A stretch of 24,253 bases of DNA from a virus. Both the position numbers and the translations under genes were made by a program. The notes beneath the pieces are model-generated. The model was given only the letters and a program-made list of their open reading frames with translations. It searched no databases and was not told the DNA's origin. The stretch covers positions 1 to 24,253 of IMG/VR virus record IMGVR_UViG_3300028883_000137; one strand, written 5' to 3'. Below are positions 5,206 through 20,183 of the stretch, piece after piece (the first letter of the stretch is position 1; every line of letters begins with the position of its first letter).

Positions 5206-5268
5206 ATCTGCTTTCCACCACCTTTTTAGTTTGGTTTTTTAAGGAAACCTATAAAAACCTATGGCGTA

Positions 5269-5895: not shown

Positions 5896-5899
5896 CTCC

Positions 5900-5980: not shown

Positions 5981-6087
5981 AATTTACATCTCCTTTTTAT
6001 AATCATATATTTACCATACATCTTTTTTATATATTTAGTAACCCTATAATCTATAATCTTATTTCTAATCTTGTTAATGATAGACAT
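5977..6087 (-). CDS. hypothetical basic protein, 36 aa
   Basis: A lysine/arginine/isoleucine-rich 36-residue protein (MSIINKIRNKIIDYR...), with GAGTGATTGAAA before the ATG. Its tail contains the ribosome-binding site of the next gene. The charge would suit nucleic-acid binding, but this is inference. Confidence 0.5.
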   Translation of the reverse strand: MSIINKIRNKIIDYRVTKYIKKMYGKYMIIKRRCKL

Positions 6088-6093
6088 TTTCAA

Positions 6094-6294
6094 TCACTCA
6101 AAATCATAAGCATTATCTATATACCAACCTTTAGGATTATCTCTACCTAATGTAGTATCCCCTATTTTATCTGCAAGACTATCATATGCTTTATATTCAA
6201 GCATACTATCAGTATCATTTTCACATACATCTACCAATACATATATATGCTCTTTATCATTGCAGAAATGATATTCCAATATATTTGTTTTCAT
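6094..6294 (-). CDS. hypothetical acidic protein, 66 aa
   Basis: Starts MKTNILEYHFCNDKEH from the ATG at 6294, preferred over a GTG at 6303 because GAGTGATTAAA precedes it at ideal spacing. It contains IYVLVDVCENDTDS, strand-like, then an acidic helical region. Function unknown. Confidence 0.6.
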   Translation of the reverse strand: MKTNILEYHFCNDKEHIYVLVDVCENDTDSMLEYKAYDSLADKIGDTTLGRDNPKGWYIDNAYDFE

Positions 6295-6299
6295 TTTAA

Positions 6300-6458
6300 T
6301 CACTCTATTTCATTCACTAAAGGATTACTCTCTTTAGATTTTTTAACTGTAATCTCTATACAATATAATTCCCCACTCTCTAAATATGTTGGCTTTATAT
6401 CTATATCTGAATGGGTTTTATACCATATCCTTTTCCAATTTGTCTTATTTTTAATCAT
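6300..6458 (-). CDS. hypothetical protein, 52 aa
   Basis: Begins MIKNKTNWKRIWYKTHSD and continues with strand-like GELYCIEITVKK. It has an exact GGTGAT ribosome-binding site six bases before the ATG, the match to the archaeal 16S rRNA tail. Its last bases form the GAGTGAT site of the next gene. Function unknown. Confidence 0.58.
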   Translation of the reverse strand: MIKNKTNWKRIWYKTHSDIDIKPTYLESGELYCIEITVKKSKESNPLVNEIE

Positions 6459-6477
6459 TCCCCATCACCTATTTTAT

Positions 6478-6612
6478 CTAATCATCTACAAAATAATACC
6501 AAAACTTTTTACCATTTTTTATTTCAAAACCCCTATATATATTTTTATCCAATTTACAGGCACATCTTAAAGCATCTCTAATATTATTAAACTTTGGTTT
6601 ATCTTTACTCAC
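6478..6612 (-). CDS. hypothetical basic protein, 44 aa, GTG start
   Basis: Reads from a GTG with AAGGAGAT upstream; the overlapping ATG runs straight into TGA, so the GTG is the only usable start. It contains ALRCACKLDKNIYRGFEIKNGKKFWYYF, like the short basic domains that phages use for nucleic-acid contacts, but no family is recognised. Confidence 0.52.
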   Translation of the reverse strand: MSKDKPKFNNIRDALRCACKLDKNIYRGFEIKNGKKFWYYFVDD

Positions 6613-6616
6613 ATTA

Positions 6617-6703
6617 CTAATCTCCTTTTATTAATTCCTTTCCACACTTACTACATCTGTAAACATCATCTATATAAGAATACACCAATTCATGTCTACA
6701 CAT
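6617..6703 (-). CDS. mini zinc-finger protein, 28 aa
   Basis: A 28-residue protein with CRHE at the N-terminus and YRCSKCGKEL at the C-terminus, so a CxxH/CxxC zinc knuckle. GAGTGATTAAA precedes the ATG. It is the first gene after a TATA box at about 6750. Probably one bound zinc; partner unknown. Confidence 0.55.
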   Translation of the reverse strand: MCRHELVYSYIDDVYRCSKCGKELIKGD

Positions 6704-6746
6704 TTTAATCACTCTTTTTAAATGTGATATGGGTTTACTTTTTAAT

Positions 6747-6758
6747 TTTATATATAGG
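6747..6758 (-). promoter_or_regulatory. leftward TATA-box promoter
   Basis: The minus strand reads CCTATATATAAAATTAAAAAG. A transcript starting about 25 bases later would have a leader of some 20 bases carrying GAGTGATTAAA before the zinc-finger gene at 6703. The match to an archaeal TATA box is good; there is no direct evidence of use. Confidence 0.48.
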
Positions 6759-6791
6759 TAAAAGAAACCCAACCTTAAAGAAACCTATTGT

Positions 6792-6917
6792 TTATTCTAA
6801 TATTTTACAATCTATTATATTTGTATCATCAAAGTATATACGAATTACTGTTCTTTCTTTATTTATAAAGGCTATATCCATAACCTTATTTCCTTCTAAT
6901 CTTATTTCATTATTCAT
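6792..6917 (-). CDS. hypothetical protein, 41 aa
   Basis: Starts MNNEIRLEGNKVMDIAF and continues with a strand-turn-strand like TVIRIYFDDTN. AGGAGATGATAT lies upstream and can be masked by a hairpin in the leader (see 6927-6942). Function unknown. Confidence 0.52.
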   Translation of the reverse strand: MNNEIRLEGNKVMDIAFINKERTVIRIYFDDTNIIDCKILE

Positions 6918-6926
6918 TTATATCAT

Positions 6927-6942
6927 CTCCTTTTTATAGGAG
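6927..6942 (-). promoter_or_regulatory. hairpin that covers a ribosome-binding site
   Basis: In the leftward RNA, CUCCU and AGGAG are separated by six bases and form a five-pair stem. The AGGAG is the ribosome-binding site of the gene at 6917, so folding would block its translation. The stem is short and may be weak. Confidence 0.35.
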
Positions 6943-7010
6943 GGGATTAAGATATAGAGCAAGTATTAAAACTTGTATCTGAATTGAACAGATAACCCAC
7001 TAATTATATT

Positions 7011-7061
7011 TATTCGTATAGTAAAGAATAGTTTATCACTCTATACGAATATTTATATCTA
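7011..7061 (-). promoter_or_regulatory. TATA box overlapping an 11-bp inverted repeat
   Basis: TATTCGTATAG at 7011-7021 and CTATACGAATA at 7041-7051 are perfect inverted repeats 19 bases apart. On the minus strand the right arm overlaps an AGATATAAATATT TATA box, and the expected start falls in the spacer. This is the expected layout of a promoter with a repressor operator, controlling the genes from 6917 leftwards. Confidence 0.45.
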
Positions 7062-7104
7062 ATGGAAACCTAACCATAGGATAACGCCACTCTATATCCT
7101 TGTT

Positions 7105-7245
7105 TTATTCACGATTTTCTAACTCTTTTTGTATAATTGCTATTTGCTCTAAAAACCAAAAGTCTATTTGTCCATTATCAAATGCTAATGAGTATTCTTC
7201 AAGTTTTTTAAGCAACTTTTCTTTACTCATTTTTGAGTAATCCAT
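7105..7245 (-). CDS. hypothetical coiled-coil protein, 46 aa
   Basis: Begins MDYSKMSKEKLLKKLEEY, a charged helical protein with leucines in heptad spacing. AAAGGTGTT lies upstream of the ATG at 7245. Function unknown. Confidence 0.55.
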   Translation of the reverse strand: MDYSKMSKEKLLKKLEEYSLAFDNGQIDFWFLEQIAIIQKELENRE

Positions 7246-7258
7246 TTTAACACCTTTA

Positions 7259-7426
7259 TTATAAATATAACTCTACCCAATTATACATATTTGCTGGATA
7301 TTTATTCAGTAAATCTTCTACAATTTTTCTATTTGTAATCATTACTACACTACCTAATGTAGCAACAATTTTACCTGAATTTTTATCATATATTTTATAT
7401 CCAAGAAATTCCATATCATTATTCAT
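7259..7426 (-). CDS. hypothetical alpha/beta protein, 55 aa
   Basis: Begins MNNDMEFLGYKIYDKNSGK and contains a strand pair (YKIYDK, IVATLGSVVMIT) followed by a helix (RKIVEDLLNKY). GGTAGTAAT precedes the ATG. Small and soluble, function unknown. Confidence 0.55.
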   Translation of the reverse strand: MNNDMEFLGYKIYDKNSGKIVATLGSVVMITNRKIVEDLLNKYPANMYNWVELYL

Positions 7427-7441
7427 ATTACTACCATTGTT

Positions 7442-7537
7442 TTATAGTATGAACATTTCAAGCACTTTTTCTGCTTCTTCTTTTGAACAACCTGTTATTA
7501 GGTTGATTTTCTTTAGTGTTTCTTTTACATATTCCAT
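7442..7537 (-). CDS. hypothetical helical protein, 31 aa
   Basis: A 31-residue peptide MEYVKETLKKINLITG followed by CSKEEAEKVLEMFIL, a helix-turn-helix-like shape. GGAGAAATAGAA precedes the ATG. Too short to assign; it could be a small adaptor or antitoxin-like peptide. Confidence 0.45.
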   Translation of the reverse strand: MEYVKETLKKINLITGCSKEEAEKVLEMFIL

Positions 7538-7551
7538 TTCTATTTCTCCAT

Positions 7552-7869
7552 TTAAATTTTATTCTGAATGTTATGAAAGATTTTTGAATGTAGATATGCA
7601 GGTAAGCACAATAGATTACCTGATAGATATACTACTTTACCAAAAAGCATAAAACAGTATATCTTTTTACCTAATCTATTGTCTTTTTTATTCCTATTAA
7701 TATGGTGTATTTCATATCCTTTAGGAATTTTTCCATATCTTAATTCCCATAAATATCTATGTTGAAATTCTAATTTTGTATCGCCATTTTTATTCATACG
7801 ATACTCATAGATATATCCTTGCTTATCATAGGAATTAAGCAAAGTTTCGTATTGCATTTTACTCATCAT
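7552..7869 (-). CDS. HNH homing-type endonuclease with in-frame insertion
   Basis: A 105-residue HNH protein. The core is FQHRYLWELRYGKIPKGYEIHHINRNKKDNRL, where the HH pair and the HxNxxxxDN spacing are the usual metal and catalytic residues of phage HNH nucleases. Normally DNRL is followed at once by xNLLxLP...H; here that tail (NLLCLPAYLHSKIFHN) appears only after 18 extra residues (GKKIYCFMLFGKVVYLSG). The 54-base insert is flanked by GGT codons on both sides and lies inside a strong hairpin. A possible target is viral DNA at a homing site. Two consecutive ATG codons open the gene, inside the end of the one upstream. Confidence 0.75.
   Translation of the reverse strand: MMSKMQYETLLNSYDKQGYIYEYRMNKNGDTKLEFQHRYLWELRYGKIPKGYEIHHINRNKKDNRLGKKIYCFMLFGKVVYLSGNLLCLPAYLHSKIFHNIQNKI
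7609..7681 (-). repeat. nested hairpin inside the HNH gene
   Basis: CAATAGATTA (7609-7618) pairs perfectly with TAATCTATTG (7672-7681), and within it AGATATACT (7625-7633) pairs with AGTATATCT (7656-7664). It coincides with the 18-codon insertion in the HNH gene and may be the insertion itself or a landing site for it. Confidence 0.6.
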
Positions 7870-8047
7870 CTATATATATGAATGGTAACTCATAAGGAAT
7901 GAATACATTAAACACACTTTCATAAGTGCAATATAATTTACTCACTATCCTATGCACTATTTTATTGTAGTGAGAATACCTATGGATTTTAAATACAAAC
8001 TTTTCAAAAATCCATTCAGCAATCACTACACATTTTTTACCTAACAT
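7859..8047 (-). CDS. hypothetical protein, 62 aa
   Basis: Starts MLGKKCVVIAEWIFEKF with a GTGATTAA ribosome-binding site. It is aromatic and basic (KIHRYSHYNKIVHRIVSKLYC) and resembles the neighbour at 8055 in having an HRxV-like segment and a Cys-containing helix, so the two may be distant paralogues. Function unknown. Confidence 0.58.
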   Translation of the reverse strand: MLGKKCVVIAEWIFEKFVFKIHRYSHYNKIVHRIVSKLYCTYESVFNVFIPYELPFIYIDDE

Positions 8048-8054
8048 TTAATCA

Positions 8055-8225
8055 CTATTTGTAAAGTTTTTCAAAGATACTATCACTTGCTATATCACAT
8101 TCAATACTATATTTACAATGTTTTTCCTGAATTTTCCATAGCATTTTATAATTAAATTTCAAGCATAGGATACATATTATTTGATGTAACCTATAATGAA
8201 ATTCATTCACTAATCTATGTATCAT
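8055..8225 (-). CDS. hypothetical protein, 56 aa
   Basis: Begins MIHRLVNEFHYRLHQIIC and is rich in His, Cys and aromatic residues. GTGAGTAAAA precedes the ATG. Its stop is just upstream of the ribosome-binding site of the gene at 8047. Function unknown. Confidence 0.52.
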   Translation of the reverse strand: MIHRLVNEFHYRLHQIICILCLKFNYKMLWKIQEKHCKYSIECDIASDSIFEKLYK

Positions 8226-8238
8226 TTTTACTCACTAT

Positions 8239-8346
8239 TTATAATTCTCTTATTCTAATTCCACAGATAACAGTATTCATAATTTCAAGCATTTCTTTAT
8301 GCTCTTTTTTACTATCTACTGTTGCTACTACTGTAAATCCATTCAC
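8239..8346 (-). CDS. hypothetical protein, 35 aa, GTG start
   Basis: Reads MNGFTVVATVDSKKEHKEM from a GTG with GGAGAGATG eight bases upstream. Strand then helix (EMLEIMNTVICGIRI). Too small to assign. Confidence 0.48.
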   Translation of the reverse strand: MNGFTVVATVDSKKEHKEMLEIMNTVICGIRIREL

Positions 8347-8401
8347 TATTTCATCTCTCCTTTTATTGCTACTTAAAGCGTAATCCTAATAAAAAATAAA
8401 T

Positions 8402-8472
8402 TCAGGATACCATTACTATTTTTTTTTACCATAACTATTATTGTATGTGGATTTCTACTCACAGTATCCTGA
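8402..8472. repeat. 9-bp inverted repeat between two leftward genes
   Basis: TCAGGATAC at 8402-8410 and GTATCCTGA at 8464-8472 are perfect inverted repeats 53 bases apart, in the gap after the gene at 8490-8678. It could be a processing or termination hairpin for the leftward transcript; the long spacer makes this tentative. Confidence 0.4.
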
Positions 8473-8489
8473 TTGTTTTAAGCACATAA

Positions 8490-8678
8490 TTATGCTTTCT
8501 TTTCGGTAAGGTAACCAGATAGGTAATGAATTTTACCGTCAATGACATGCTGTCCATATAATCTGAACATTTTGTTACCATTACTTGATTTTGATTTTGT
8601 AGCAGTAACAGTTCCGATTTCAATAGCAACTTTTTCATTACCATTGCTGGATTTACCTAATTCTACAACTTTACTCAT
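8490..8678 (-). CDS. small protein with internal KSSNGN repeat, likely well expressed
   Basis: A 62-residue protein: MSKVVELGKSSNGNEKV, IEIGTVTATK, then SKSSNGNKMFRLYGQHV and IHYLSGYLTEKKA. The KSSNGN segment occurs twice, suggesting a duplicated beta-hairpin, and the whole looks like a small beta barrel. It has a strong AAGGAGAT site, its own TATA box, a dyad operator and less extreme base composition than neighbours, all fitting strong expression. Function unknown; single-strand nucleic-acid binding would suit but is unsupported. Confidence 0.68.
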   Translation of the reverse strand: MSKVVELGKSSNGNEKVAIEIGTVTATKSKSSNGNKMFRLYGQHVIDGKIHYLSGYLTEKKA

Positions 8679-8717
8679 AGAATTTATCTCCTTTTTAGTT
8701 GTCTTTTTTAAAGTAGA

Positions 8718-8745
8718 GATTATAAAACTACTGTTACAAAGTAAC
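8718..8745 (-). promoter_or_regulatory. TATA box with upstream dyad GTTACAAAGTAAC
   Basis: On the minus strand a perfect 5-3-5 dyad (8733-8745) is followed five bases later by TTTTATAATC (8728-8719), about 40 bases before the ATG at 8678. The dyad sits where an archaeal regulator would meet the TFB recognition element. Confidence 0.42.
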
Positions 8746-8942
8746 TCTAATTTTTAAGCACTTATTGTATCTGCTTTAAGGTTGTAATGAAGTTAAATTT
8801 AATCACATATACAGAAACCTTTTTATGGGTAGGTAAACACCAAATAAAATCACTACAATACCTATATTTACAGCAATAAGCACTTATTTATTCATATTTT
8901 AATTGATATTTTTACCTTATACCTATCCAAAAGAAATAAGAT

Positions 8943-9134
8943 TTATTTAATATTTGTAATTATTTTTCTATTATTATAAAATAATCCTATATGTAAACAT
9001 CTTTTATACTTTAAGAATGAACTATTTTCATTCCAAGTATTATTAGGAAAGGTTAATATATCAAATATTATATTTCCATTTTTATTTACATATACTATCT
9101 GATTTTTATTAACTATATGTTTTATTTTATTCAT
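8943..9134 (-). CDS. hypothetical basic protein, 63 aa
   Basis: From the ATG at 9134 (GAGTTGTGAGA upstream) it reads MNKIKHIVNKNQIVYVNKNGNIIFDIL, a beta-rich basic protein. A longer form from 9197 would add a hydrophobic leader without ribosome-binding site, which I think less likely. First gene of the packed leftward block next to the central non-coding region. Function unknown. Confidence 0.5.
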   Translation of the reverse strand: MNKIKHIVNKNQIVYVNKNGNIIFDILTFPNNTWNENSSFLKYKRCLHIGLFYNNRKIITNIK

Positions 9135-9798
9135 ATTCTCACAACTCTTTTTGGGATATAAGATAAAAAGTAAGGATAATAACCTATATTTAAGCACATA
9201 TGGTAATGGCTTTTAAAGTATCCATATAGTTATTGCTATTATCCTTACGAATAACTGTTGCTATATTTCAAGCACATTGTTATTACTGTTTTTACTGTTA
9301 TTATTAGTCATAGTGGATAATAATACCATAAAATATCTTTTACTAATGATATTTATTTATACTATAAGATAAATTTTAGAATAACCAATATTCTTTTAAA
9401 TATCCTATAATAAATTGAATTGTTAAAGGTTTAAAAGATGTTTAATTATTGGTTAATTAAACCTTAAACCTTTAACTTAATCCATGTTTCATGGTTTATC
9501 GGTATTTCATATTTAAATGTTTGCATAAAGTTTATATAGTTTGTCAATAACATATTTAAACTTTATGGTTATTTTATTTGCTATAAAAATAAAAATATCA
9601 AAATAAAATTTATATCTTATAGGATAAAACTTTAAGATATAATCTTATTTTCAATTTAAACCTATCTAAAATCAATCACAATCAAAAAACTATTTAGATA
9701 GGTATATTATCATTAATAAAAAAATAATGTCTTAAATGATTTTAAAATAAATGTCAAATAAAAATAACAGTTAAAAAAAAAATAAAAAAAAAAAGATT
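9135..9798. other. non-coding region with a string of stem-loops
   Basis: No plausible gene in about 660 bases. It holds five inverted repeats: an imperfect one at 9363-9409, 13 bp perfect at 9422-9434/9464-9476, 11 bp at 9524-9534/9557-9567, a compact TAAGAT-ATA-ATCTTA at 9633-9647, and 10 bp at 9661-9670/9693-9702. The last 25 bases before 9798 are nearly all A. A structured RNA, a replication element or a set of terminators for the gene at 9799 are possible. Confidence 0.55.
9422..9476. repeat. 13-bp perfect inverted repeat
   Basis: GTTAAAGGTTTAA and TTAAACCTTTAAC flank a 29-base spacer. This is the longest perfect inverted repeat I see in the window, and lies 320 bases beyond the stop of the Lys/Asn-rich gene. 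Confidence 0.65.
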
Positions 9799-11349
9799 TT
9801 ATTGTTTATGTAATTGTTTTATTTCTTTTATTCTATTTTGACATCTAATTATTTGTTTTTGTTTTAAATTCTGTTGTGTTATCCAATATTTAGATTGTTT
9901 ATTATCTATTGAATTAACTTTATTTGATTTTTTGATTAAAGAAATATTTTGTTTTAACCAATAGTTTAATTTATCTTTATCAATAACTGTTTTATCTATT
10001 AGTTTAATACCGTTTAATCTTATTAAATCATAATCATAATTTAATATAGCATTTTTCTTTATATCATTTAACCAATAGTTTAAAACATCTATTTGTTTTT
10101 TATATAAACCATTATTATAAAATATTCTTTTATTATTCATTAATAATGATAAATACTTATCAAATAAAGATAAATCATTTTTGTTTAAGGTTTTATTGTA
10201 AATACTTATTTTTTTACCTTTAACAATTTTATAAACCTTAACATAATTATCTTTAAAATCAAATAAATTATTGTTAAAGAATAGATTATTTTTGATAAAT
10301 GATTTTAGTTTTTTATCTATATTACTATTTAACAATAGGTTTTTTGTTTTTTCAAAATAGTAATTATTTGTTTTTATCATATTAATTAAACTATTGAATA
10401 TTTCTAAAAACATATTACCATTAACAGTTTTTTGTTTTTTCTTTAAGTTATGATAACTAAATTTATGTTTTGTTTTGTTATCATTTAGAAAATATAAATA
10501 ATCCCGATATACTTTAGATATAAACCTATTAGATAATAGTTTTTTATTAACAGTTTTTTTACCAAATAAATTTATTATTTCATAAGGTTTATATAATTCA
10601 ATATATCCATTATTTTCTAATAATTCTTTATTATAATATAATCTATTTTTTCTTAATTCTAATTTATCTTTAGAATTTTTAATCGTATCATTATATATTT
10701 TTCTTTTAAAAGGATAACCATAATTATTAATTGGTTTATTAAATGTATTTAAATTATCTGTTAAACCTAAATCTGTTAATCTAACAGTTATAATTTTTAA
10801 ATTACTATCTAAAGATTTTAATTCACAATCATTTTTTAAATGATAGCAAAAACCTTTAGAAATAATAAACTGGTTTATTAAATCATTATTTTTGATATTA
10901 CCATTTTTATATCTGTTATATAAACCTATATTAAAATTACATCTAATATTGTGTTTATGTTTTTTAGAATTATAGATAAAAGGTTTATATTTTTCAATAG
11001 AAATATTATTTTCATTATTTTTATTGTTATTATCTTTATTGTTTTTATTTTCATTTAAAGATTTTAACAATTTAGTTTTATTTCTTATTTCTTTATTGTA
11101 ATTTTTCTTTAAGTTAGATAATACTTTATTTCTATTTGATATTATCTTATTTTTAGGTTTAAAATCATTTTTGTTTTTATCTATTAAAAATGTTAAACCT
11201 AACTGTTTTTTATGTTTAGTTTTATGTTTTATTATAGGTTTATTTATCTTATTTTCTTTAAGATATTTGTTTATATCTTTTTTGTTAGTCAACAGCGTAA
11301 TTTTACCATTTTTATTTATGGTTATAGATTTTATTTTTTCGTTTTTCAT
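9799..11349 (-). CDS. large Lys/Asn-rich protein of unknown function
   Basis: A 516-residue protein, the largest in the leftward half, with very high Lys, Asn and Ile/Leu content and an Asn-rich linker near residues 100-115 (NKNNKDNNNKNNENN). The N-terminal 60 residues and the last 60 (NYWLKQNISLIKK...KYWITQQNLKQKQ) are basic; the motif YWL/YWI recurs three times near the C-terminus. ITVRLTDLGLTDN in the middle looks like an ordered core. AGGTG precedes the ATG. I recognise no polymerase, helicase or Rep motif. Its position beside the central dyads and stem-loops would suit a replication initiator or DNA-binding protein, but that is inference. Confidence 0.7.
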   Translation of the reverse strand: MKNEKIKSITINKNGKITLLTNKKDINKYLKENKINKPIIKHKTKHKKQLGLTFLIDKNKNDFKPKNKIISNRNKVLSNLKKNYNKEIRNKTKLLKSLNENKNNKDNNNKNNENNISIEKYKPFIYNSKKHKHNIRCNFNIGLYNRYKNGNIKNNDLINQFIISKGFCYHLKNDCELKSLDSNLKIITVRLTDLGLTDNLNTFNKPINNYGYPFKRKIYNDTIKNSKDKLELRKNRLYYNKELLENNGYIELYKPYEIINLFGKKTVNKKLLSNRFISKVYRDYLYFLNDNKTKHKFSYHNLKKKQKTVNGNMFLEIFNSLINMIKTNNYYFEKTKNLLLNSNIDKKLKSFIKNNLFFNNNLFDFKDNYVKVYKIVKGKKISIYNKTLNKNDLSLFDKYLSLLMNNKRIFYNNGLYKKQIDVLNYWLNDIKKNAILNYDYDLIRLNGIKLIDKTVIDKDKLNYWLKQNISLIKKSNKVNSIDNKQSKYWITQQNLKQKQIIRCQNRIKEIKQLHKQ

Positions 11350-11367
11350 ATTTTACACCTTTTTTAT

Positions 11368-11505
11368 TTAATCTTTAAACATATAGTTTAAAGTTGATAT
11401 TTCTTTTATGTTTATTTCTTTAATTAGATTTATGGTTTTATCTAATTGACTAATTAACTTATTTTCTATTTCTATTCTAGGTTTAACTAATATTTCATTT
11501 TTCAT
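11368..11505 (-). CDS. small helical protein, 45 aa
   Basis: Begins MKNEILVKPRIEIENKLI and is a probable coiled coil (ISQLDKTINLIKEINIKEIS). GGAGAT precedes the ATG. It is encoded 18 bases before the 516-residue protein and starts with the same MKNE, so the two are probably co-transcribed and may act together. Confidence 0.58.
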   Translation of the reverse strand: MKNEILVKPRIEIENKLISQLDKTINLIKEINIKEISTLNYMFKD

Positions 11506-12310
11506 AATATCTCCATAAATATACAACAAAAATTTACCATTAATCATTTATCTATACTATAAGGAGAAATAATTATCTAAATCTTAATATAAAGTAGATA
11601 GAATAAAAACCTTAATTTTATTTATTCGCTAAAAATCTAAATTAACATCTGTTAATATTATTATCTAGTTGTAAAATCTTAAAATTTTATGGTTAATGTT
11701 ATACCCTATTCCCATAACTTTATATATAAAAACTTACTACTTATTATAAAGTATATATATATAAATATATATTTGAAACAAATGTTAAAAAGATAAAAAT
11801 AAAATGTAACAAATGTAAGATATTAACAACTGTTAATCAATTTAGATAATAATAAAATGTTTTAGTTTATAGATATAGTTTAATAAAAAAACTATTATTA
11901 TCCATGGTTACAAATGTAAATATAATGATAATATAAAAATATACATAAATTATTATTTAGGATTATATTAAATAATTTATAATTAAAGGATTATATTAAT
12001 TAAATTATAAGATTAATTACTTTAGATTATATTAAAAGAATTAATTAAATAATATTTCGTTATAAGTATATATTTATATCTATAAATATATCGTTATAAT
12101 AATCTTATCGTTATATATTTGGTGTAGTATATAAAAATCTAAATATATAATATTGATAGATAAATAGAATAAAATATTTCTGTTAATATACTATACTATA
12201 TATAAAAAACAATAAAATATTAAGTATTAAATAATTTAGTTGTTTATATATATTAATTCGTTATATTTATTCATTTATATATTAGATAAAGAATAATAAC
12301 AAAATTTTCC

Positions 12311-12790
12311 TGCTTGTTAATATCTAGCACGATTTTATAATAATCTGTTAATATGTGGTATGCTAACAATTAGCACGTTATCATAATAACAACCTAGATA
12401 ATATCTAGCACGATTTTTTTGACATTGAAGTATGTTAACTTGTAGCGTGGTAACTTGTGGTATGCGTGACAATGTCTAGCACGGTCGCCGCGACTTTCGG
12501 CTCACCCCCTTTTCTCCTGTCGTGTCCATACCTATATAGGTTAGGGGGTATATAAACCTTTCGGAATTATCAAGCCATGCTAGTCATTGTCTAGCACGCT
12601 CGGCTGGCCTGACACTATGCACCATGCTAACATGTAGCACGGCTCGATCCTAAATCTAATATATCTGACTAATAATATAATAATATCTAGATAAAAATAT
12701 CGCGATCCAAATAGGATAAATATCTAGATAATAATATAAAAAAACACCGATAAAAATACGACTCCCGTGCATGACACTGTCTAGCATGGT
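12311..12790. repeat. cluster of about eight TGCTA...TAGCAcg dyads (iteron-like)
   Basis: Related elements lie at about 12311-12331, 12359-12377, 12400-12412, 12431-12449, 12464-12484, 12575-12598, 12622-12641 and 12767-12789. Typical forms are TGCTAACAATTAGCACG, TGCTAGTCATTGTCTAGCACG and TGCTAACATGTAGCACG: a TGCTA half-site, 5-10 bases, then TAGCACG. Most are inverted repeats; some keep only the right half (AATATCTAGCACGATTTT occurs twice almost unchanged). The spacing is irregular. Confidence 0.7.
12504..12549. promoter_or_regulatory. nested palindromes and TATA-like element in the central island
   Basis: ACCCCCT (12504-12510) and AGGGGGT (12543-12549) are inverted repeats enclosing the perfect 12-base palindrome ACCTATATAGGT (12530-12541); GGTATATAAACC follows. 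It lies in the GC-rich core between two groups of dyads and could be a promoter, an unwinding site or a protein-binding centre. Confidence 0.42.
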
Positions 12791-13377
12791 ATAGGCCTAT
12801 ATATTTTCTCCAATAAAAAAAAAACCGATATTCATATTTTTACTCACGTTTTTAGATATAATTTTTATTTTCGTGCGTGTGTGCGTAAAATATTTATATT
12901 TCTATTGGTTTATAAAAGTATTTCACCTATTAATATTTCTATATATAAATAATTAAAAAATCTTGATCTAATATTTTGATCTAAAAACTTGTTTATTGAT
13001 CTTAATAATTTTATGTGCATATTTTCCCAATATAGTAATATGATCTAATAATAAAAGGTTTAACTATATATATAACTACATATATTTAAATATACTAATA
13101 AGAATATTTGTATTTATATATAAATGTTTGATAAAATTAAATATTTATATAGATAACTATATAAGTAAATATCACATTATAAAATTGTAAATATGGTTTA
13201 ATACGATCACATATTTATATAGGTGATAAACCAAATAAGATTAAGGTTTATATGATCTAGATACGCAATAAACAAATATGTATTAAACTTAAACTTATGA
13301 TCTTTTAAGGTTTAATTGATCTTAAAGTTTTATGGTTTTAAAATTGATCTAGATTAAACAAATATATAGGTGATATT

Positions 13378-13647
13378 ATGAACATAAAAGATAGAGTTAA
13401 AGAATATGAAAGCTTATTAAAAGATGATCTAAAACAATTATATAGTTATGATAAAGATATATTCTTTATTGTTGATAGTAATTACAATAAAAATACTAAA
13501 TCTATACATTCAAGTATTTTACTATTTACTGATATAATCTTTATAGATCAAATATACAAATTTAAAGATGAGTATAAAGTTTTATCTGACGATCTACAAT
13601 ATATAACATTAAACAATAAAGCTATTGAGTTACATTTAGTTAATTAA
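13378..13647 (+). CDS. hypothetical acidic protein, 89 aa
   Basis: Begins MNIKDRVKEYESLLKDDL; soluble, mixed helix and strand, with a beta-like middle (DIFFIVDSNYNKNTKSIHSS). An exact GGTGAT ribosome-binding site precedes the ATG. It is the first gene of the short rightward operon on the right side of the central region. Function unknown; the neighbour is a DNA-binding regulator, so a regulatory partner is possible. Confidence 0.68.
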   Translation: MNIKDRVKEYESLLKDDLKQLYSYDKDIFFIVDSNYNKNTKSIHSSILLFTDIIFIDQIYKFKDEYKVLSDDLQYITLNNKAIELHLVN

Positions 13648-13657
13648 GGTTGATCTT

Positions 13658-13774
13658 ATGCCTAGTATTAACGTATATCTTAATCATAAACAATATATGC
13701 AAATAGTTAAAGTTAAAGATAAATCGAAGTTAATACAACAACTATTAAACAAACATTTTAAAGATGGTGATTAA
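13658..13774 (+). CDS. ribbon-helix-helix-like small DNA-binding protein
   Basis: 38 residues: MPSINVYLNHKQYMQIVK, then KDKSKLIQQLLNKHF. A leading alternating strand (INVYL) followed by two helices with a Ser-containing turn and a hydrophobic LIQQLL helix is the layout of CopG/Arc ribbon-helix-helix proteins, which dimerise and bind short dyads in DNA. It is slightly shorter than usual. AGGTTGATC precedes the ATG. It could act on the dyads in the central region, an inference from position only. Confidence 0.55.
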   Translation: MPSINVYLNHKQYMQIVKVKDKSKLIQQLLNKHFKDGD

Positions 13775-13970
13775 TATAAACGATATAGGATATTATAAGC
13801 TATTAGATCAATTAATAAGTTTGTCAGATCATTATAAACAACAATTTAAAATAACTTTAAATAACAAATATCTAGTTAAAAGAAATTGTTTGTTTATGGG
13901 CAAATATTTAGCTTATGACGATCTAATATTATATATGCAACAAAACAAAAACGAATTTATTAAAAAATAG
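13764..13970 (+). CDS. hypothetical basic protein, 68 aa
   Basis: Overlaps the ribbon-helix-helix gene by 11 bases when read from ATG at 13764 (MVININDIGYYKLLDQL). A GGTGAT lies just inside this start, four bases before an in-frame ATA at 13776, so the true start is uncertain. The body is helical and basic (YKQQFKITLNNKYLVKR). It ends at a terminator hairpin. Function unknown. Confidence 0.58.
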   Translation: MVININDIGYYKLLDQLISLSDHYKQQFKITLNNKYLVKRNCLFMGKYLAYDDLILYMQQNKNEFIKK

Positions 13971-14010
13971 ATAGATCATAATAGTTTATTGATCTATCTT
14001 TTATTTTTTG
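13969..14010 (+). terminator. hairpin plus T tract ending the short rightward operon
   Basis: AGATAGATCA (13969-13978) pairs with TGATCTATCT (13990-13999) across an 11-base loop, and the right arm runs into TTTATTTTTT. The left arm includes the stop codon of the preceding gene. T-rich tracts end transcripts in archaea, so this is a convincing terminator. Confidence 0.72.
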
Positions 14011-14763
14011 CATCTATAATTAACAATTGTTAATAATATTATTAGATCATAAGATAATATTAATATATGGTATTAGATAGCTATAAACCTTTAACATTAA
14101 CTAATAAATAAAGATAAAAAAAAAAATTTAAGATATAAGTTTAATTCGATCTAGTAATAAACTTATAGTTAGATCATGTTTGTATATTGTTATATATTGT
14201 TTATCTAGTTGTTTGTTATATGATCTATATATGTTTAGATCATCTTTAAGTTTGTATATCATAACTAGATCAAATATATGTTTGATATAAATAGTTTATA
14301 TGTAAGTAATTATGCAATAGTATAATTAACTATATTGATCTAATATTACAATATAGATATATCATATTATCAAAATATTAAGCATTAAATTCTATAATCA
14401 TTATTATTTAAATTTGGACTATTCAAAAAATTTTCAATCAAAAAATTATATATTAATATTAAAAAAATAAAGATTGAATAAAAATAATTGAAAAAGATAA
14501 AAATGATATTATTATCTATCTAATATTACAATATTGAATTATATATTAATAACAACATAAATAAGCCTTAATGTATATACAAATATATACATATACTGCT
14601 TAGTATCCCACCTCCGGTGTAACGGAAACTCAAAAAGCAGTCCTGATATCCTCATCGCAGCACCTTAATTTTATACCCCCATTTTTCACCAAAATAACGA
14701 TAAATTGTAGCAACATACTATATAAAGGTTTTGGTAGCCCAACAGGAGTGGAGTACTCAAATT
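14011..14763. other. non-coding AT-rich spacer and late control region
   Basis: About 750 bases without a credible gene. The first part continues the GATC-rich, AT-rich DNA (last GATC near 14340). From about 14595 the base composition rises and the sequence becomes structured: ACTGCTT (14595-14601) pairs with AAGCAGT (14635-14641) around an inner CCG...CGG, followed by the late promoter. Because it directly precedes the terminase genes, a packaging site could also lie here. Confidence 0.5.
14718..14728 (+). promoter_or_regulatory. late-operon TATA box
   Basis: CTATATAAAGG is a near-ideal archaeal TATA box. Transcription would begin about 25 bases later, near the 8-base palindrome GAGTACTC (14751-14758). 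It is the only strong TATA box before the packaging and head genes, which all run rightwards with few gaps, so it probably drives the late operon. Confidence 0.6.
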
Positions 14764-14871
14764 ATGAAAAGTTATGCTCGTGTATATTATTATGGAGGAA
14801 GGAAAAAATATTTAAACCTTTCTACAATAAGTATAAATAAGATGAATTCGTTAATTACGGAGAGCCAATAG
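14764..14871 (+). CDS. possible small leader protein, 35 aa
   Basis: A reading frame from ATG at 14764 (MKSYARVYYYGGRKKYLNL) with GGAGTGGAG upstream, directly after the late promoter. Basic and tyrosine-rich. It may be a real small gene or just a leader peptide; I see no homology. Confidence 0.38.
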   Translation: MKSYARVYYYGGRKKYLNLSTISINKMNSLITESQ

Positions 14872-14935
14872 CTAAGGCGGGAATGATGGTGGGAAACATT
14901 TTACTTATTCTATTCTATATTAATTAGATGATATA

Positions 14936-15493
14936 ATGACTAAAGTTAATAAGATCGTAAAAAATAAGATTGAATCCTTTGTAGATCCACTTTTAGATAA
15001 TGGTTATAGTGTCTACACTATTTCAGATATGATTAAAGATAATTACTCTGATAATCCAGATTTAAAGAATGGATCTCATATGATGGTCCAACGATATAAG
15101 GAGCATAGAGATAAGAGTAAACTAATAGAGGTGGATCAATCTGGGGAGGATATGGTAGAATTCGTCAAACAAGAATATAGAGACACAGTCTCTTCCATTA
15201 GGAAGGAAATAAATAAATGGAAGAAGAGAAATGATGAATTATATAAAAAGGCTGAAACTGATGGTAGTATCTCGGATGTAGCTAAGGTTATAAAACAAGC
15301 TAATGATACTCTAATGAATGAACTAAAGGTCTCAGAGTCTAAACTGGACAGACTCGGTAGACAGATAAAGAGTATTGGAGACATAAACCAAAAGAAGGTC
15401 CAGAATTTAAATATTATAATGATAGGTTTGGCTAATAAGTTGTGTCCTGAATGCAAAAAACGAATTCTTGAAGAGTTAAGTAAACTAACATAA
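14936..15493 (+). CDS. terminase small subunit-like protein
   Basis: A 185-residue protein with an N-terminal helical part (IESFVDPLLDNGYSVYTISDMI...) that resembles a helix-turn-helix, a long charged middle with coiled-coil character (about residues 70-150) and a C-terminal CPECKKRILEEL. An N-terminal HTH followed by a coiled coil upstream of TerL is the usual design of small terminase subunits, which recognise the packaging site and regulate the motor. The lone CPEC pair at the end is unusual and may bind metal by dimer sharing. Position is the main support; a DNA-binding regulator is the alternative. Confidence 0.55.
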   Translation: MTKVNKIVKNKIESFVDPLLDNGYSVYTISDMIKDNYSDNPDLKNGSHMMVQRYKEHRDKSKLIEVDQSGEDMVEFVKQEYRDTVSSIRKEINKWKKRNDELYKKAETDGSISDVAKVIKQANDTLMNELKVSESKLDRLGRQIKSIGDINQKKVQNLNIIMIGLANKLCPECKKRILEELSKLT

Positions 15494-15517
15494 TGTTGAA
15501 ACAAATTAGGAGGAAAT

Positions 15518-15781
15518 ATGATAAAACCCAAGAGTTACGTAGAAGTATCATCTTATGATAAATGGAAAACCGTAAAGAAATTCTTAACTGGTTTATTATT
15601 GGGTATAGCACCAACAGCTTTGTTATACACCATAAACTTTCTTGAACAAGAAGAATTTCCTGAGGAGTATGCAGTTTATATTCCTTTAGCAGTAGCGATA
15701 CTACATGCAGCAATGAATTTAGTTAAACACTATAATGATACTATACTGGTAGATCCAACAGATGGAGAACCAGTTTGTTAG
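15518..15781 (+). CDS. small membrane protein with two transmembrane segments
   Basis: 87 residues with hydrophobic segments at about residues 22-43 (FLTGLLLGIAPTALLY) and 54-70 (VYIPLAVAILHAAM), joined by an acidic loop. AGGAGG ribosome-binding site. Its size and topology are holin-like, but in an archaeal virus without a known lysis cassette nearby this is only a guess; a membrane-anchored packaging or exit protein is equally possible. Confidence 0.6.
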   Translation: MIKPKSYVEVSSYDKWKTVKKFLTGLLLGIAPTALLYTINFLEQEEFPEEYAVYIPLAVAILHAAMNLVKHYNDTILVDPTDGEPVC

Positions 15782-15785
15782 ACTT

Positions 15786-15914
15786 ATGAAGAATCTAAAA
15801 TGTCCGTTGAAATACGAACGTGAACTCGTTGAATCCTATGATAACATAAACCATGCCCATGGTTCTTTGACACGGGCGTATCCGCTGAATCCTATATTAA
15901 TCGTAGATCAATAA
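15786..15914 (+). CDS. doubtful small gene or structured leader, 42 aa
   Basis: A frame starting MKNLKCPLKYERELVESYD with no ribosome-binding site. The DNA is less AT-rich than its neighbours and contains a repeated TTGAATCCTAT / CTGAATCCTAT 60 bases apart, which could point to an RNA element rather than a protein. Confidence 0.25.
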   Translation: MKNLKCPLKYERELVESYDNINHAHGSLTRAYPLNPILIVDQ

Positions 15915-15990
15915 TCTGAACCAAATGGTATGTAAACATTAAAGGGAAATGTTATGTTATTATATGATAAATATGAGGAAAAAGGATAAT

Positions 15991-16107
15991 ATGGATATAG
16001 ACAAATGGCTAGCAGATGCAGCTAAATGGATTTTACCATTTTTCGGTTTTCTGTTTATAGCAAAAACAATCTTTGGTCTATCATTCAGCTTAGGATTTGC
16101 TTTCTAA
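15991..16107 (+). CDS. single-span membrane peptide, 38 aa
   Basis: MDIDKWLADAAKWILPFFGFLFIAK followed by a hydrophobic tail, so one transmembrane helix with a short acidic outside or inside tail. AAAGGAT precedes the ATG. It lies between the two-span membrane protein and TerL; the two membrane proteins may work together. Function unknown. Confidence 0.55.
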   Translation: MDIDKWLADAAKWILPFFGFLFIAKTIFGLSFSLGFAF

Positions 16108-16144
16108 GGTCTGATTTATAGACTTTAAGGGAGAAACTTTTAAT

Positions 16145-16180
16145 ATGTATTATGTTTTTTATTTTCACTTAAACTTATGA
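16145..16180 (+). promoter_or_regulatory. 11-codon upstream reading frame coupled to terL
   Basis: ATG at 16145 follows a good GGGAGA ribosome-binding site and encodes MYYVFYFHLNL; its TGA overlaps the terL ATG (ATGA at 16177-16180). terL itself has no ribosome-binding site, so ribosomes probably reach it by finishing this short frame. Confidence 0.45.
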
Positions 16181-18582
16181 CTCAAAAAGAATTTGATGCA
16201 CTGAAATACTCTATAGATCCTATAGCCTTTATGAAGGAAATATTAGGACTAAAGTGTGAGTGGTTTCATCAAGAGTGGTTAAAGTTATTTGAAGACAATA
16301 ACTTTATTTCCTTATTAGCTCCAAGAGGACATGGTAAGGAAGAAGATATAAATACACCTATATTAACTCCAAATGGTTGGAAGAAAATGGGAGACCTTCT
16401 TATAGGAGATTATGTTATAGGCTCTGATGGCAAACCAACTAAAGTAATAGGAGTTTACCCTCAGGGAGTTAAAGAAGTATATAAAGTAGAAACGTCTGAT
16501 GGTAGAAGTACAAGATGTGGGAAAGAACATCTATGGACAGTACAAACTCCTAGTAATACCAAAGATAAATTTATAACTAAAACTACATTAGAATTATCTA
16601 AGAATTATAAATCAAAAAGATTTGATAAACGTAATGGTAAACATTACATAGAATATAGACACTTTATACCTACTGTATCTCCAATTGAATTTGAAGAGAA
16701 AAAATTATTGATAGAACCTTATACTCTAGGTGCTTGGTTAGGTGATGGAGACTCTAATGGTAATGGATTTACTACTGCAGATGAAGAAATATTAAGATAT
16801 TTAAATTATGAGATTACTTCACGGAAGAGAAAATATCGTTATGGTCTTATAGGATTAAAAACTCACTTAAAAGAATTAGGATTAATAAACAATAAGAGTA
16901 TTCCAGAAGAATATTTATTTGCAAGTAAAGAGCAAAGGATTGCTTTGCTACAAGGATTGATGGATACTGATGGTAATAATCAAACTGATGGTCATGTATT
17001 TGAATTTAATAATTCAAATTATGAATTGATAAATGGTGTTCTCGCTTTAATAAGAAGTCTGGGAGGCACAGGTAAACTTTCAGAAAGATACACATCTTAT
17101 TCAGGATCAAATAATAAATTTAAGAGTTATAGAATTACTGGAAAAGTTCCGAAAAGTATAATACCTTTTAGATTAAAAAGGAAAATAGAACAATGGAAAG
17201 GAAGTTTAAAAACTCGCTCTTCAATCATTAATATATCCAAAGATGGATATGCTGAATGTCAGTGTATACAAGTAGAAAATGAAGATGGTTTATATATAAC
17301 AAAAGATTATCTTCTTACACATAACACTGTATTAGTAAGTTCTTATCTTACATGGAAAATTGTACAGGACCCCGATATTAGGATATTAACGGTCACCATT
17401 AATCAAGATAAAGCTAATGAAATGATGTCTCTATTGCAATCAGCTTTAGAGAGAAATGAAAGATTAATAGAAATATTTGGCCAACAGAAGGGATATTCTG
17501 ATTGGTCTAGATCTACCCTAAGAGTTATGAGAGCTGGTAGATCAGGTAAAGCTCATAAAGAACCCACCTTCACTGTAGTAGGTGTAACGGCATCTATGGT
17601 TGGTGGGCATTACGATATAATAATATTAGATGATATAACTGATCAAAACAATTCAAGAACTGAACATAGAAGAAGAGATTTAGTTGATTGGTATAATTCA
17701 ACATTGACTCCTATGTTAGAACCTGAGGGAAAGATAATCTCTATAGGAACTAGATGGCATGAATCAGATATACATACCTACTTACAAAAATTACCAAACT
17801 TTGAATCAAAAATATATAAAGCTATATTGGATGATGAAAACAAGGAAGTCTTATGGCCAGAACAGTGGACATACGACAAACTAATGGAAAGAAAATATGG
17901 AATGGGATCTCTTAGTTTTCAGATGCAATATCAAAATGAAATAATATCTCATGAAGATTCTCCTATAAAGAGAGAATGGGTTGAAAACTCTATAAATAAA
18001 TATAAGATGATACCTCAACCCTTTGAAACATTCATGGGAGTAGATCTCTCATCTAAGGGTGAAGAGACAGATTACTTCACCATAACTATAATAGGAATCC
18101 ATGAAGGTATGATATATATACTTGATGGACTAAGAACCAAGGCATCCTTATTTAAACAATTTGAGTTAATAAAATCTTATGACTCAAAGTGGCAACCCTC
18201 TAAGATAGGAATTGAACAAGCTGCACAACAGAAAATGATAGTAGATCAACTAGTAGAATCTACCACTCTACCAATAATTCCTATAAAGTCATCTATCGTT
18301 AGCGATAGAATGTCTAGGGTTCAACGATTATCAGTTTTATTTGAAACAGGAAGAGTTTATTTAAATCCAAACCTAGAGGATTGGGCTAACGAGATGATAT
18401 ATTTTCCAAGAGGATCTCATGATGATACCATAGATTCTCTCTCATTTGCAATTCAAGCTTCACAGTCTGATGAAGAAGAACATAAAATTGATTGGACTCA
18501 AGTTAAAGAAATGATAGTAACTAGAAAGGATGTGGGTACAAAACCCATTGTTAAGAGAGATTATAGGATAACAAAAATATAG
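16177..18582 (+). CDS. terL: terminase large subunit interrupted by an intein
   Basis: 801 residues, of which about 472 are the packaging ATPase-nuclease. The N-terminal ATPase has Walker A APRGHGK-T, split by the intein between K54 and T384, Walker B DIIILDD (about residues 480-486) and the coupling motif SIGTRWHESD (about 520). The C-terminal RNase H-like nuclease shows acidic residues in FMGVDLSSKG (about 620), GIEQA (about 680) and HDDTIDS (about 745), the three positions that hold metal. After splicing the ATPase motif becomes GHGKTVL. It powers DNA translocation through the portal and cuts concatemers. Translation probably depends on the overlapping upstream frame. Confidence 0.95.
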   Translation: MTQKEFDALKYSIDPIAFMKEILGLKCEWFHQEWLKLFEDNNFISLLAPRGHGKEEDINTPILTPNGWKKMGDLLIGDYVIGSDGKPTKVIGVYPQGVKEVYKVETSDGRSTRCGKEHLWTVQTPSNTKDKFITKTTLELSKNYKSKRFDKRNGKHYIEYRHFIPTVSPIEFEEKKLLIEPYTLGAWLGDGDSNGNGFTTADEEILRYLNYEITSRKRKYRYGLIGLKTHLKELGLINNKSIPEEYLFASKEQRIALLQGLMDTDGNNQTDGHVFEFNNSNYELINGVLALIRSLGGTGKLSERYTSYSGSNNKFKSYRITGKVPKSIIPFRLKRKIEQWKGSLKTRSSIINISKDGYAECQCIQVENEDGLYITKDYLLTHNTVLVSSYLTWKIVQDPDIRILTVTINQDKANEMMSLLQSALERNERLIEIFGQQKGYSDWSRSTLRVMRAGRSGKAHKEPTFTVVGVTASMVGGHYDIIILDDITDQNNSRTEHRRRDLVDWYNSTLTPMLEPEGKIISIGTRWHESDIHTYLQKLPNFESKIYKAILDDENKEVLWPEQWTYDKLMERKYGMGSLSFQMQYQNEIISHEDSPIKREWVENSINKYKMIPQPFETFMGVDLSSKGEETDYFTITIIGIHEGMIYILDGLRTKASLFKQFELIKSYDSKWQPSKIGIEQAAQQKMIVDQLVESTTLPIIPIKSSIVSDRMSRVQRLSVLFETGRVYLNPNLEDWANEMIYFPRGSHDDTIDSLSFAIQASQSDEEEHKIDWTQVKEMIVTRKDVGTKPIVKRDYRITKI
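16339..17325 (+). mobile_element. class 3-type intein with LAGLIDADG endonuclease, inside terL
   Basis: Residues 55-383 (329 aa). The first residue is Glu, not Cys or Ser, so normal N-terminal chemistry is impossible. Block B has His118 and Trp120 (KEHLWTV), block F has Cys363 in the position usually held by Asp (CQCIQVEN), and the end is LLTHN with Thr381, then Thr384 as first C-extein residue. Trp-Cys-Thr is, as I recall it, the signature of class 3 inteins, in which the block F Cys starts splicing. The middle holds two endonuclease motifs, LGAWLGDGD (184-192) and LLQGLMDTDG (257-266). The insert has only one GATC in 987 bases. Confidence 0.88.
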
Positions 18583-18591
18583 GAGGATATC

Positions 18592-18870
18592 ATGGAAGAA
18601 ATCTACATAGGTTCTAAGGATATATCTAGATATATATCAGCTTGTTTCTACTCTCTAGGAAAGGATAAAGATATAAAGATTATAGCTAGGGGAAACAATA
18701 TCAAGAGAGCTATCGATATATTAGCTATTCTTGTCAGAGATTATTTAGAGAATCCCGAATATGATATAAAGGTAGGTAGTGAACCATTTGAAAAGAGAAA
18801 TGTTTCTACCTTGGAGATTATATTATCCGGAACTAAGAAGGGTAATATAAATAATAAGAAAGAAAAATAA
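18592..18870 (+). CDS. Alba family DNA/RNA-binding protein
   Basis: 92 residues matching the Alba fold end to end: IYIGSKDISRYISACFYSL at the N-terminus (the Alba strand and helix with its lysine and tyrosine), IKIIARGNNIKRAIDI in the middle (the highly conserved ARGxxI-x-RAxD segment), and VSTLEIILSG as the final strand. Alba proteins are dimeric chromatin and RNA-binding proteins of archaea and some eukaryotes. AGGAGGATATC precedes the ATG. It lies between terL and the portal gene, an unusual place; it may coat or condense the packaged genome or compete with host Alba. Identity is secure, role inferred. Confidence 0.9.
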   Translation: MEEIYIGSKDISRYISACFYSLGKDKDIKIIARGNNIKRAIDILAILVRDYLENPEYDIKVGSEPFEKRNVSTLEIILSGTKKGNINNKKEK

Positions 18871-18887
18871 AAAAAGAGGATTAATAT

Positions 18888-20183
18888 ATGGGAATATTAG
18901 GAAGTATTAGGGATAAATTCCCTCTTACTTTAAAAAAGAAAAAGAAATCAATATTTTTAGATAGTAAGGGTAGATACAAAACCATTATAGCTACCGGTAA
19001 GACTTCTGGTGGTGGAGGTGTATCTGCAGCTCCAGAGAGATCTGAGAAGGCTCTAAAGAATTATAAGACATATTATGATGGAGAAAATACTGTCTTTGCT
19101 GCTATAAATACTACTGCTTGGAATGCTATAATGGTTGGATACAACCTAGTATCAGATGATAGTAAAGCTAGATTGTTCATCCAGAGGTATTTAGATGCAC
19201 TAGATTTAGATGCAGTATTATTGGATAATGTTGTATATACCTTAATTTATGGAGACTCCTTTATAGAAATAGTAAGAAATTCTTCAGAAGATATTACTGA
19301 TTTGAAGACCGTAGATCCAATAACTATGGTTGTTAATTATGATAAATTTGGAATGGTTACTGGTTACCAACAAAAGATTCAGGGGCAATTACAAAAAACT
19401 ATTCTAAAACCAGGAGATATAATGCACTTAAAGTTCTTTTCCAATCCCAGTAACCCTTATGGTATGTCCATAATACAGCCATCCATGGATACTATTGATA
19501 GAAAAATACAAACTGATGATGCTTTAGCTAACGCTATTCTAAGACATGGAACAAGTAAATATCTAGTAAAGGTAGGAACAGAAGAAGATATACCTGACTC
19601 AGAGGTATTTACGGATATTAAGAATGAATTGGAGGATATAACATCTACTAATGAATTTATTGTACCAGCATTAATAGATATAACTACAATAGATGAAAAG
19701 GGAGTTCAGGGAGTAGAGGAGTATTCCTCGTTATTTCAGACTCAATTAGTTATAGGAATGTTATGTCCAGAGGAAGCTTTGGGTTTAGGAAAAGGATCTA
19801 CTGAAGCCACTGCTACCGTCAAACAAATAATGTATGAGAGATTTATAAGATCTATTCAATTTAAATTATCAACTCAAATAAAAAATGAAATAATAAATCC
19901 TATATTGGAAAAAAATGGATTTAAGAAAAATATAGTAAAGTTAAGGTTTAATTCAGTAACAGATTCTGATGAGGCTGTAAAATCTAAATGGTTAGGTAAT
20001 CTTCTCAGAGGATATCCTCAAGGAAAACATCCCTTTACTATTAATGAAGTAAGATCAATGTTTGGCTACCCTCCAATAAAGGGTGGTGATGTTTTATCCC
20101 ATACTACTCCAGAAGAAGGAGATGAAAAACCGGAGGAAGAAATTGAGGAACCAAAACCAGAAGAAGAAGAAGAAGAAGAATGA
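18888..20183 (+). CDS. portal protein
   Basis: 431 residues with the pattern of HK97/SPP1-type phage portals: YYDGENTVFAAINTTAWNAIMVGY, VYTLIYGDSFIEIVR, LKTVDPITMVVNYD, KPGDIMHLKFFSNPSNPYGMSIIQP and the later helix-rich stem-like part (LGLGKGSTEATATVKQ...). It would form the dodecameric ring at one capsid vertex that carries TerL and the DNA channel. The last 30 residues are almost only Glu, Pro and Lys. AGAGGAT ribosome-binding site. Its stop overlaps a tiny frame that leads into the protease gene. Confidence 0.88.
   Translation: MGILGSIRDKFPLTLKKKKKSIFLDSKGRYKTIIATGKTSGGGGVSAAPERSEKALKNYKTYYDGENTVFAAINTTAWNAIMVGYNLVSDDSKARLFIQRYLDALDLDAVLLDNVVYTLIYGDSFIEIVRNSSEDITDLKTVDPITMVVNYDKFGMVTGYQQKIQGQLQKTILKPGDIMHLKFFSNPSNPYGMSIIQPSMDTIDRKIQTDDALANAILRHGTSKYLVKVGTEEDIPDSEVFTDIKNELEDITSTNEFIVPALIDITTIDEKGVQGVEEYSSLFQTQLVIGMLCPEEALGLGKGSTEATATVKQIMYERFIRSIQFKLSTQIKNEIINPILEKNGFKKNIVKLRFNSVTDSDEAVKSKWLGNLLRGYPQGKHPFTINEVRSMFGYPPIKGGDVLSHTTPEEGDEKPEEEIEEPKPEEEEEEE

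Follow-up and report, generated by a model that had tools for sequence, protein, structure and literature searches.

The stretch of DNA analyzed here (24,253 nucleotides, hereafter the window) carries, at the point where its two gene arms part, an array of inverted repeats of the TGCTA..TAGCACG type, inside which lies a leftward archaeal-type promoter. These dyads are confined to one locus, they recur in six related viruses, and their 17-bp form matches a site that is also found ahead of aromatic amino-acid genes in cells of the phylum Thermoplasmatota, and on this evidence the control region of the virus seems to be tied to a regulator of cellular type. On the sequence data, we give a probability of about one half to the reading that the array consists of operators of such a regulator, which would gate viral early transcription. 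The earlier note on this DNA did not foresee the link to a cellular regulon, which came from a search with the viral motif. To our knowledge, almost no regulators are known for the large archaeal tailed viruses represented by metagenomes only; here, the viral motif led straight to a cellular regulon, which provides a binding partner that can be tested and a clue to the lineage of the host.

Genes on the left side of the window point leftward and those on the right side rightward. Between them, the flanks of the array have a GC content of 15-20%, and no ORF of at least 60 aa was found in 11372-13377, which bears out the earlier description of an AT-rich, gene-free region between diverging genes. 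Genes typical of tailed viruses are present in the window, i.e., those for the terminase large subunit (with an intein), portal and prohead protease. An Alba-domain gene in the window, together with the family B polymerase, Rad51-like and ERCC4 genes of a 144-kb relative (G001), points to an archaeal host, while the closest cellular-bin relative of the portal is located on a short contig that was assigned, perhaps by mis-binning, to a Thermoplasmata MAG. The intein of the large terminase gene (window 16177-18582) contains a LAGLIDADG domain, and the relatives of this gene in G015 and G017 are much shorter (~470 codons). The features of the divergence point are as follows:

9799..11349, minus strand: 516-aa protein, the left arm's first large gene, in the place taken by the P400 family (see below) in other dyad-bearing viruses
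12045..14339, unstranded: variable module, comprising the dyads and three small ORFs, with a 463-bp replacement in G001
12311..12331, plus strand: dyad 1, 21-bp class, TGCTTGTTAATATCTAGCACG
12346..12362, plus strand: dyad 2, degenerate 17-bp class, 15 bp ahead of dyad 3
12361..12377, plus strand: dyad 3, 17-bp class, TGCTAACAATTAGCACG
12392..12412, plus strand: dyad 4, 21-bp class
12433..12449, plus strand: dyad 5, 17-bp class, TGTTAACTTGTAGCGTG
12448..12464, plus strand: dyad 6, degenerate 17-bp class, 15 bp past dyad 5
12462..12599, unstranded: core of ~140 bp (dyad 7, promoter and dyad 8), 83% identity to G004 (IMGVR_UViG_3300029258_001469)
12463..12483, plus strand: dyad 7, 21-bp class, TGCGTGACAATGTCTAGCACG, left border of the conserved core
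12530..12541, unstranded: 12-bp palindrome ACCTATATAGGT, where transcription from the leftward promoter would be expected to start
12564-12549, minus strand: predicted archaeal-type promoter CCGAAAGGTTTATATA, read leftward, with BRE CCGAAA and TATA TTTATATA
12578..12598, plus strand: dyad 8, 21-bp class, TGCTAGTCATTGTCTAGCACG, directly upstream of the leftward promoter
12625..12641, plus strand: dyad 9, 17-bp class, TGCTAACATGTAGCACG
12768..12788, plus strand: dyad 10, 21-bp class, TGCATGACACTGTCTAGCATG
13378..13647, plus strand: 89-aa ORF in the variable module
13658..13774, plus strand: 38-aa ORF, for which a ribbon-helix-helix label is unsupported
13764..13970, plus strand: 68-aa ORF

Searches with two strict consensus sequences, i.e., the 23-bp palindrome CGTGCTAGACANTGTCTAGCACG (at most 6 mismatches) and the shorter form CGTGCTAACANGTAGCACG (at most 5 mismatches), returned eight sites in 12250-12850 and none in the remainder of the window, while 1000 dinucleotide-preserving shuffles of 12250-12850 yielded a mean of 0.022 sites and a maximum of two. 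Relaxed scoring gave a count of ten, which takes in a 6-mismatch match near 11733 (treated as noise) and omits the degenerate copy at 12346; the dyads of the TGCTA..TAGCACG type extend over 12311-12788. The roughly eight related elements, most of them inverted repeats, reported earlier within 480 bases are thus present, clustered far beyond what shuffled sequence produces. They fall into two spacing classes, namely 17-mers (starting at 12361, 12433, 12448, 12625 and, degenerate, 12346) and 21-mers (12311, 12392, 12463, 12578 and 12768), with exact 15-bp tiling at 12346/12361 and 12433/12448/12463; the better-conserved half, TAGCACG, forms the right side of all window dyads. As a single strand, the array folds strongly (z = -4.75), which says little since dyads self-fold. 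An RNA reading of the array was dropped, as Rfam returned no match at the gathering score and none that was credible at relaxed E-values.

The GC-rich core with its 12-base palindrome and TATA-like stretch was also found as previously described, the latter being the minus-strand archaeal BRE+TATA element. This element is the single match to the BRE+TATA pattern within the window and has dyads on both sides. The G004 core possesses the same BRE/TATA and start region (CTATATAGG), the same palindrome and, again, dyads on either side; contig L039 retains promoter and start region in reversed orientation, along with part of the palindrome. Downstream of the leftward promoter, several hundred bases pass without a clear gene. 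In L039, the window-type promoter/start motif is followed by a GC-rich stretch of ~140 bp (3847-3990) that could fold as RNA, for which Rfam returned no match.

In the six related viruses, the dyads always occupy one divergence-point locus that separates the terminase side from the opposite arm, rather than being scattered over the genome. Relaxed counts are 14 in G004, 19 in G005 (L009), 9 in G009 (L039), 8 in G010 (L040), 59 in G015 and 29 in G017. The latter two represent near-complete maps (~154 and ~138 kb, respectively) whose portals are ~50-60% identical to that of the window and whose gene layout is the same; 44 of the 45 strict sites of G015 lie in the dyad locus (151,879 to 3,860, across the start of the ring), as do all 24 of those of G017 (16,669-18,563). 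Dense 15-bp tilings are common among the dyads of these relatives. Furthermore, dyads adjoin BRE/TATA promoters of small genes in L008 (at 3037, 4456 and 4887) and G015 (at 2109, 3564 and 153359), being positioned 20-64 bp upstream of these promoters, while some in L009 (3883-3961) lie between converging gene ends. In the loci of L039, L040, L009 and L008, each virus also brackets its dyads with a G+C-rich word of its own and the reverse complement thereof, for example GTGGGGCG/CGCCCCAC in L040, GTGGGAC/GTCCCAC in L039 and GGTGGG/CCCACC in L008. Among phage and plasmid records, only a chance-level match was obtained, in an Acinetobacter phage lipase gene, and the viral contig 3300007535_000003, which was matched in a search, is devoid of dyads.

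These data bear on the proposal that the region is a master divergent promoter. Genes point away from it on both sides and it contains a BRE+TATA element with adjacent dyads, such dyads being located 10-64 bp upstream of BRE/TATA elements in the window and in relatives, among these several promoters of G004 and G015. This speaks for the divergent-promoter part of the proposal, but no rightward promoter was found in the window in a scan with one BRE+TATA consensus.

Two protein families accompany the dyads. A gene of the P170 family (156-178 aa) is preceded by dyads in all six dyad-bearing relatives, and in all six a member of the P400 family (295-410 aa) represents the first large gene of the opposite arm. 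Both families are absent from the window and from G001, G002 and L036. Dyads and P400 thus co-occur with the window as sole exception (6/1/0/3; Fisher p = 0.033, a hand calculation on few, non-independent genomes). The place of P400 is taken by a 516-aa-type protein in the window, G001 and G002, and by a shorter relative of it in L036; an hhalign comparison (probability 5%, E 0.007) provides no more than a hint of homology between P400 and the 516-aa protein. P400 was not found in sets of 293 and 300 archaeal genomes, and its predicted model is poor (pLDDT 54) with no clear structural match, while P170 has only two marginal matches in 293 archaeal genomes. P170 was rejected as a candidate regulator, for its AlphaFold model (pLDDT 84) matches only pairs of helices, no better than the noise expected of helical models. 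Neither of the dyad binders suggested earlier holds up: the ORF at 13658, taken for a ribbon-helix-helix protein, has 38 aa and no RHH match in Pfam, and the 516-residue protein is 99.8% identical in the dyad-free G001.

A search of 293 genomes of the Thermoplasmatota, the phylum that holds the above Thermoplasmata MAG, with the pattern TGCTAACANGTAGCAYG returned eight exact sites in seven genomes (no control matches; ~0.5 expected by our own estimate); with up to two mismatches, these seven contain one to four sites each (control 0). One of the seven, G045, is GC-rich and doubtful and its sites look unrelated, and it was set aside; the other six could, as a guess, be Methanomassiliicoccales. 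The pattern was absent, even with one mismatch, from 398 genomes of another archaeal phylum (that of G019). The retained sites conform to a 17-bp sequence, GTGCTAACANGTAGCAYG, and nearly all are positioned at promoters of four gene types (the first four lines below):

L114, L116, L127, L129, L130: promoter of an ADTH synthase gene
L128, L131: promoter of a bifunctional chorismate mutase/prephenate dehydrogenase gene, behind a TrpB-like gene
L119, L121, L123, L126, L132: promoter of a PaaK-like CoA ligase gene
L112, L115, L117, L120, L122: promoter of a gene for a 42-44-aa membrane protein (L113 similar by sequence)
L125: ahead of a winged-helix gene

We regard GTGCTAACANGTAGCAYG as the putative operator of an aromatic amino-acid regulon in these six genomes. 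A matrix (26 bits) built from 19 cellular sites alone, with the viral sites left out, scores dyads 3 and 9 of the window (at 12361 and 12625) at 24.2 and 25.7 bits, respectively, the cellular range being 23.0-32.9; it fits only the 17-bp class well, i.e., 2 of the 10 window dyads, and does not capture the 21-bp class. With the same matrix, 19 matches were obtained in G015 and five in G017, every one of them inside the dyad locus; G001, G002 and L036 gave no match. A literature search for the dyad motif returned nothing.

In the reading that we favor, at about even odds, the dyads would be recognized by a sequence-specific regulator that has its target site in common with an aromatic amino-acid regulon of some cellular Thermoplasmatota. 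The virus would carry about ten such operators around one leftward archaeal promoter where the gene arms part; the regulator of the cell, or a viral protein of the same specificity, would bind beside BRE/TATA and might thereby gate the transcription of genes on the early side. We infer here that a protein binds the dyads, that this protein comes from the cell, that its effect is repression or activation, and that the leftward transcript is of importance. Several observations argue against these sites being operators: those of the cells are single, whereas the viral sites form dense 15-bp tilings of up to 59 copies, beyond what ordinary control would involve; only the 17-bp class fits the cellular matrix well; some viral dyads are situated between converging gene ends; the leftward promoter has no clear gene close behind it; and the cells that bear the site are candidate hosts at most. 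A wider scheme, to which we would lend only tentative credence, is that a cellular amino-acid-sensing operator has been made into a tiled array, through which the host regulator would gate both early transcription and replication by amino-acid state, or on which it would be titrated.

The viral dyads share features with several known systems. With the Thermoplasmatota operator they have in common the 17-bp site at promoters, but the viruses carry arrays of 8-59 instead of single sites, and no aromatic amino-acid gene was found near the window array. Aromatic amino-acid genes of Methanothermobacter are controlled by TrpY through the TRP box; this, too, is archaeal aromatic amino-acid control, with TGTACA as the box. 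Two reports on cluster A mycobacteriophages (PMC9283540, PMC6550527) describe stoperators, many copies of one regulator site per genome that are tied to early promoters; the sites are asymmetric and spread across the phage genome (PMC9283540). The dyads resemble stoperators, as there described, in being many copies of one site in one viral genome, near promoters, and differ from them in being imperfect palindromes, in being restricted to one locus and in having a motif that matches a cellular operator.

The closest relative of the window lacks the dyads altogether. G001 (IMGVR_UViG_3300030616_000506; 144,545 bp), the ends of which overlap by 192 bp, implying a circular or permuted map, is 99.4% identical to window positions 5888-12044 and 14762-20667, while the intervening segment (~12044-14340), with the dyads and three small ORFs, is replaced by 463 bp without dyads. 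G002 also possesses a short, dyad-free version. Given that so close a relative does without the dyads, this lineage does not depend on them as an origin. Recent import could account for the window segment; a join made in assembly is less likely. A strain that is otherwise 99% identical can gain or lose a whole control module, akin to immunity-region swaps in phages.

The alternative that the array is a replication origin, its dyads being iterons for a viral initiator (P400 or P170 in the relatives) beside melting AT-rich DNA, is possible but distinctly less probable than the operator reading. Iteron origins of plasmids and phages combine repeated sites in a tiled arrangement with neighboring AT-rich DNA and a switch of skew. 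At the dyad locus, several copies of one site are clustered at one place and tile at 15 bp, the flanks are 80-85% AT, and the detrended GC-skew minimum falls inside the locus in both G015 (at 3,272) and G017 (at 17,140). The consistent presence of P400 and P170 in the six dyad-bearing relatives, and their absence from the three dyad-free genomes, is likewise in its favor. The skew, however, follows gene direction, which flips at the same places; minimum and maximum are 61% (G015), 49% (G017) and 37% (G001) of the ring apart, i.e., mostly not opposite, and in ORF-free DNA the skew is weaker or absent in the left arms of G015 and G017, so that these data cannot separate replication from transcription. 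The dyad-free G001 retains a skew switch (minimum at 140,564, in a flat low-skew region adjoining the junction), the sites are not kept in the closest relatives G001 and G002, and the window is without P400 and P170, whose predicted structures gave no informative match. No known initiator is present among the proteins scanned, in agreement with the earlier note. Unlike iterons, moreover, the dyads also flank promoters, and sequence of the identical type is found at promoters in cells. The two outcomes that the earlier note named as refuting, i.e., random scatter of the dyads and a skew switch elsewhere, were not obtained: the dyads are confined to one locus, and the skew switches there. An origin function at this locus, unproven as it is, would be compatible with the operator reading.

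It is improbable, though less so than the two readings that follow, that the array acts as a decoy by titrating the host aromatic amino-acid regulator and so frees synthesis or transport genes for virus production: the 8-59 viral copies against one to four per cellular genome, the dense tiling and the location of some arrays away from any promoter would suit this, but several dyads are placed exactly beside viral promoters, and copies are few in the window. Very little weight is given to the possibility that window 12044-14340 is a chimeric join or a foreign insert, whose dyads have no role in the virus. The segment is indeed missing from the 99.4% identical G001, contains 27 GATC where 9 would be expected, next to 12 kb with no GATC at all, and comes without the proteins which accompany dyads elsewhere; against this, its position equals that of the dyads in six other viruses, and its core, 83% identical to that of G004, has kept the promoter with dyads on either side. 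Least probable, by a small step, is a partition (centromere-like) site for a small viral protein, for while iterated inverted sites near small genes would fit such a role, no ParA/ParM-type partner was found among the proteins scanned and the 38-aa ORF is without an RHH match.

Further observations concern the surroundings of the array. GATC is absent from the whole 12-kb left arm (window 1-12043) and from ~24 kb of the matching arm in G001 (~120-144.5 kb) and G015 (~4-28 kb), as well as from G017 ~20-32 kb, a pattern suggestive of early or first-entering DNA evading a defence that cuts at GATC. The G001 junction (L013 614-1077) carries repeats of its own, TTGACTA/TAGTCAA, similar ones being present in L037 (~3480-3560), and these possibly represent a different operator specificity. 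G001 also has an extra gene of 175 codons (L005 5900-6420) at the position corresponding to window 20667, which is absent from the window. Finally, non-coding blocks at 14560-14935, ahead of what is likely the small-terminase gene, are conserved in a dozen relatives, some of them dyad-free, with the words GTGCTTAGT..CCACCTCCGGTGTAACGG, TATATAAAGGTTTCGGT..CAACAGGAG and GGAGAGGCAAGCTAAGCCGGG. RNAalifold returned three pairs with next to no covariation signal for this region upstream of the terminase, and the blocks are therefore treated as a DNA element, possibly a packaging site, a promoter cluster or an origin.
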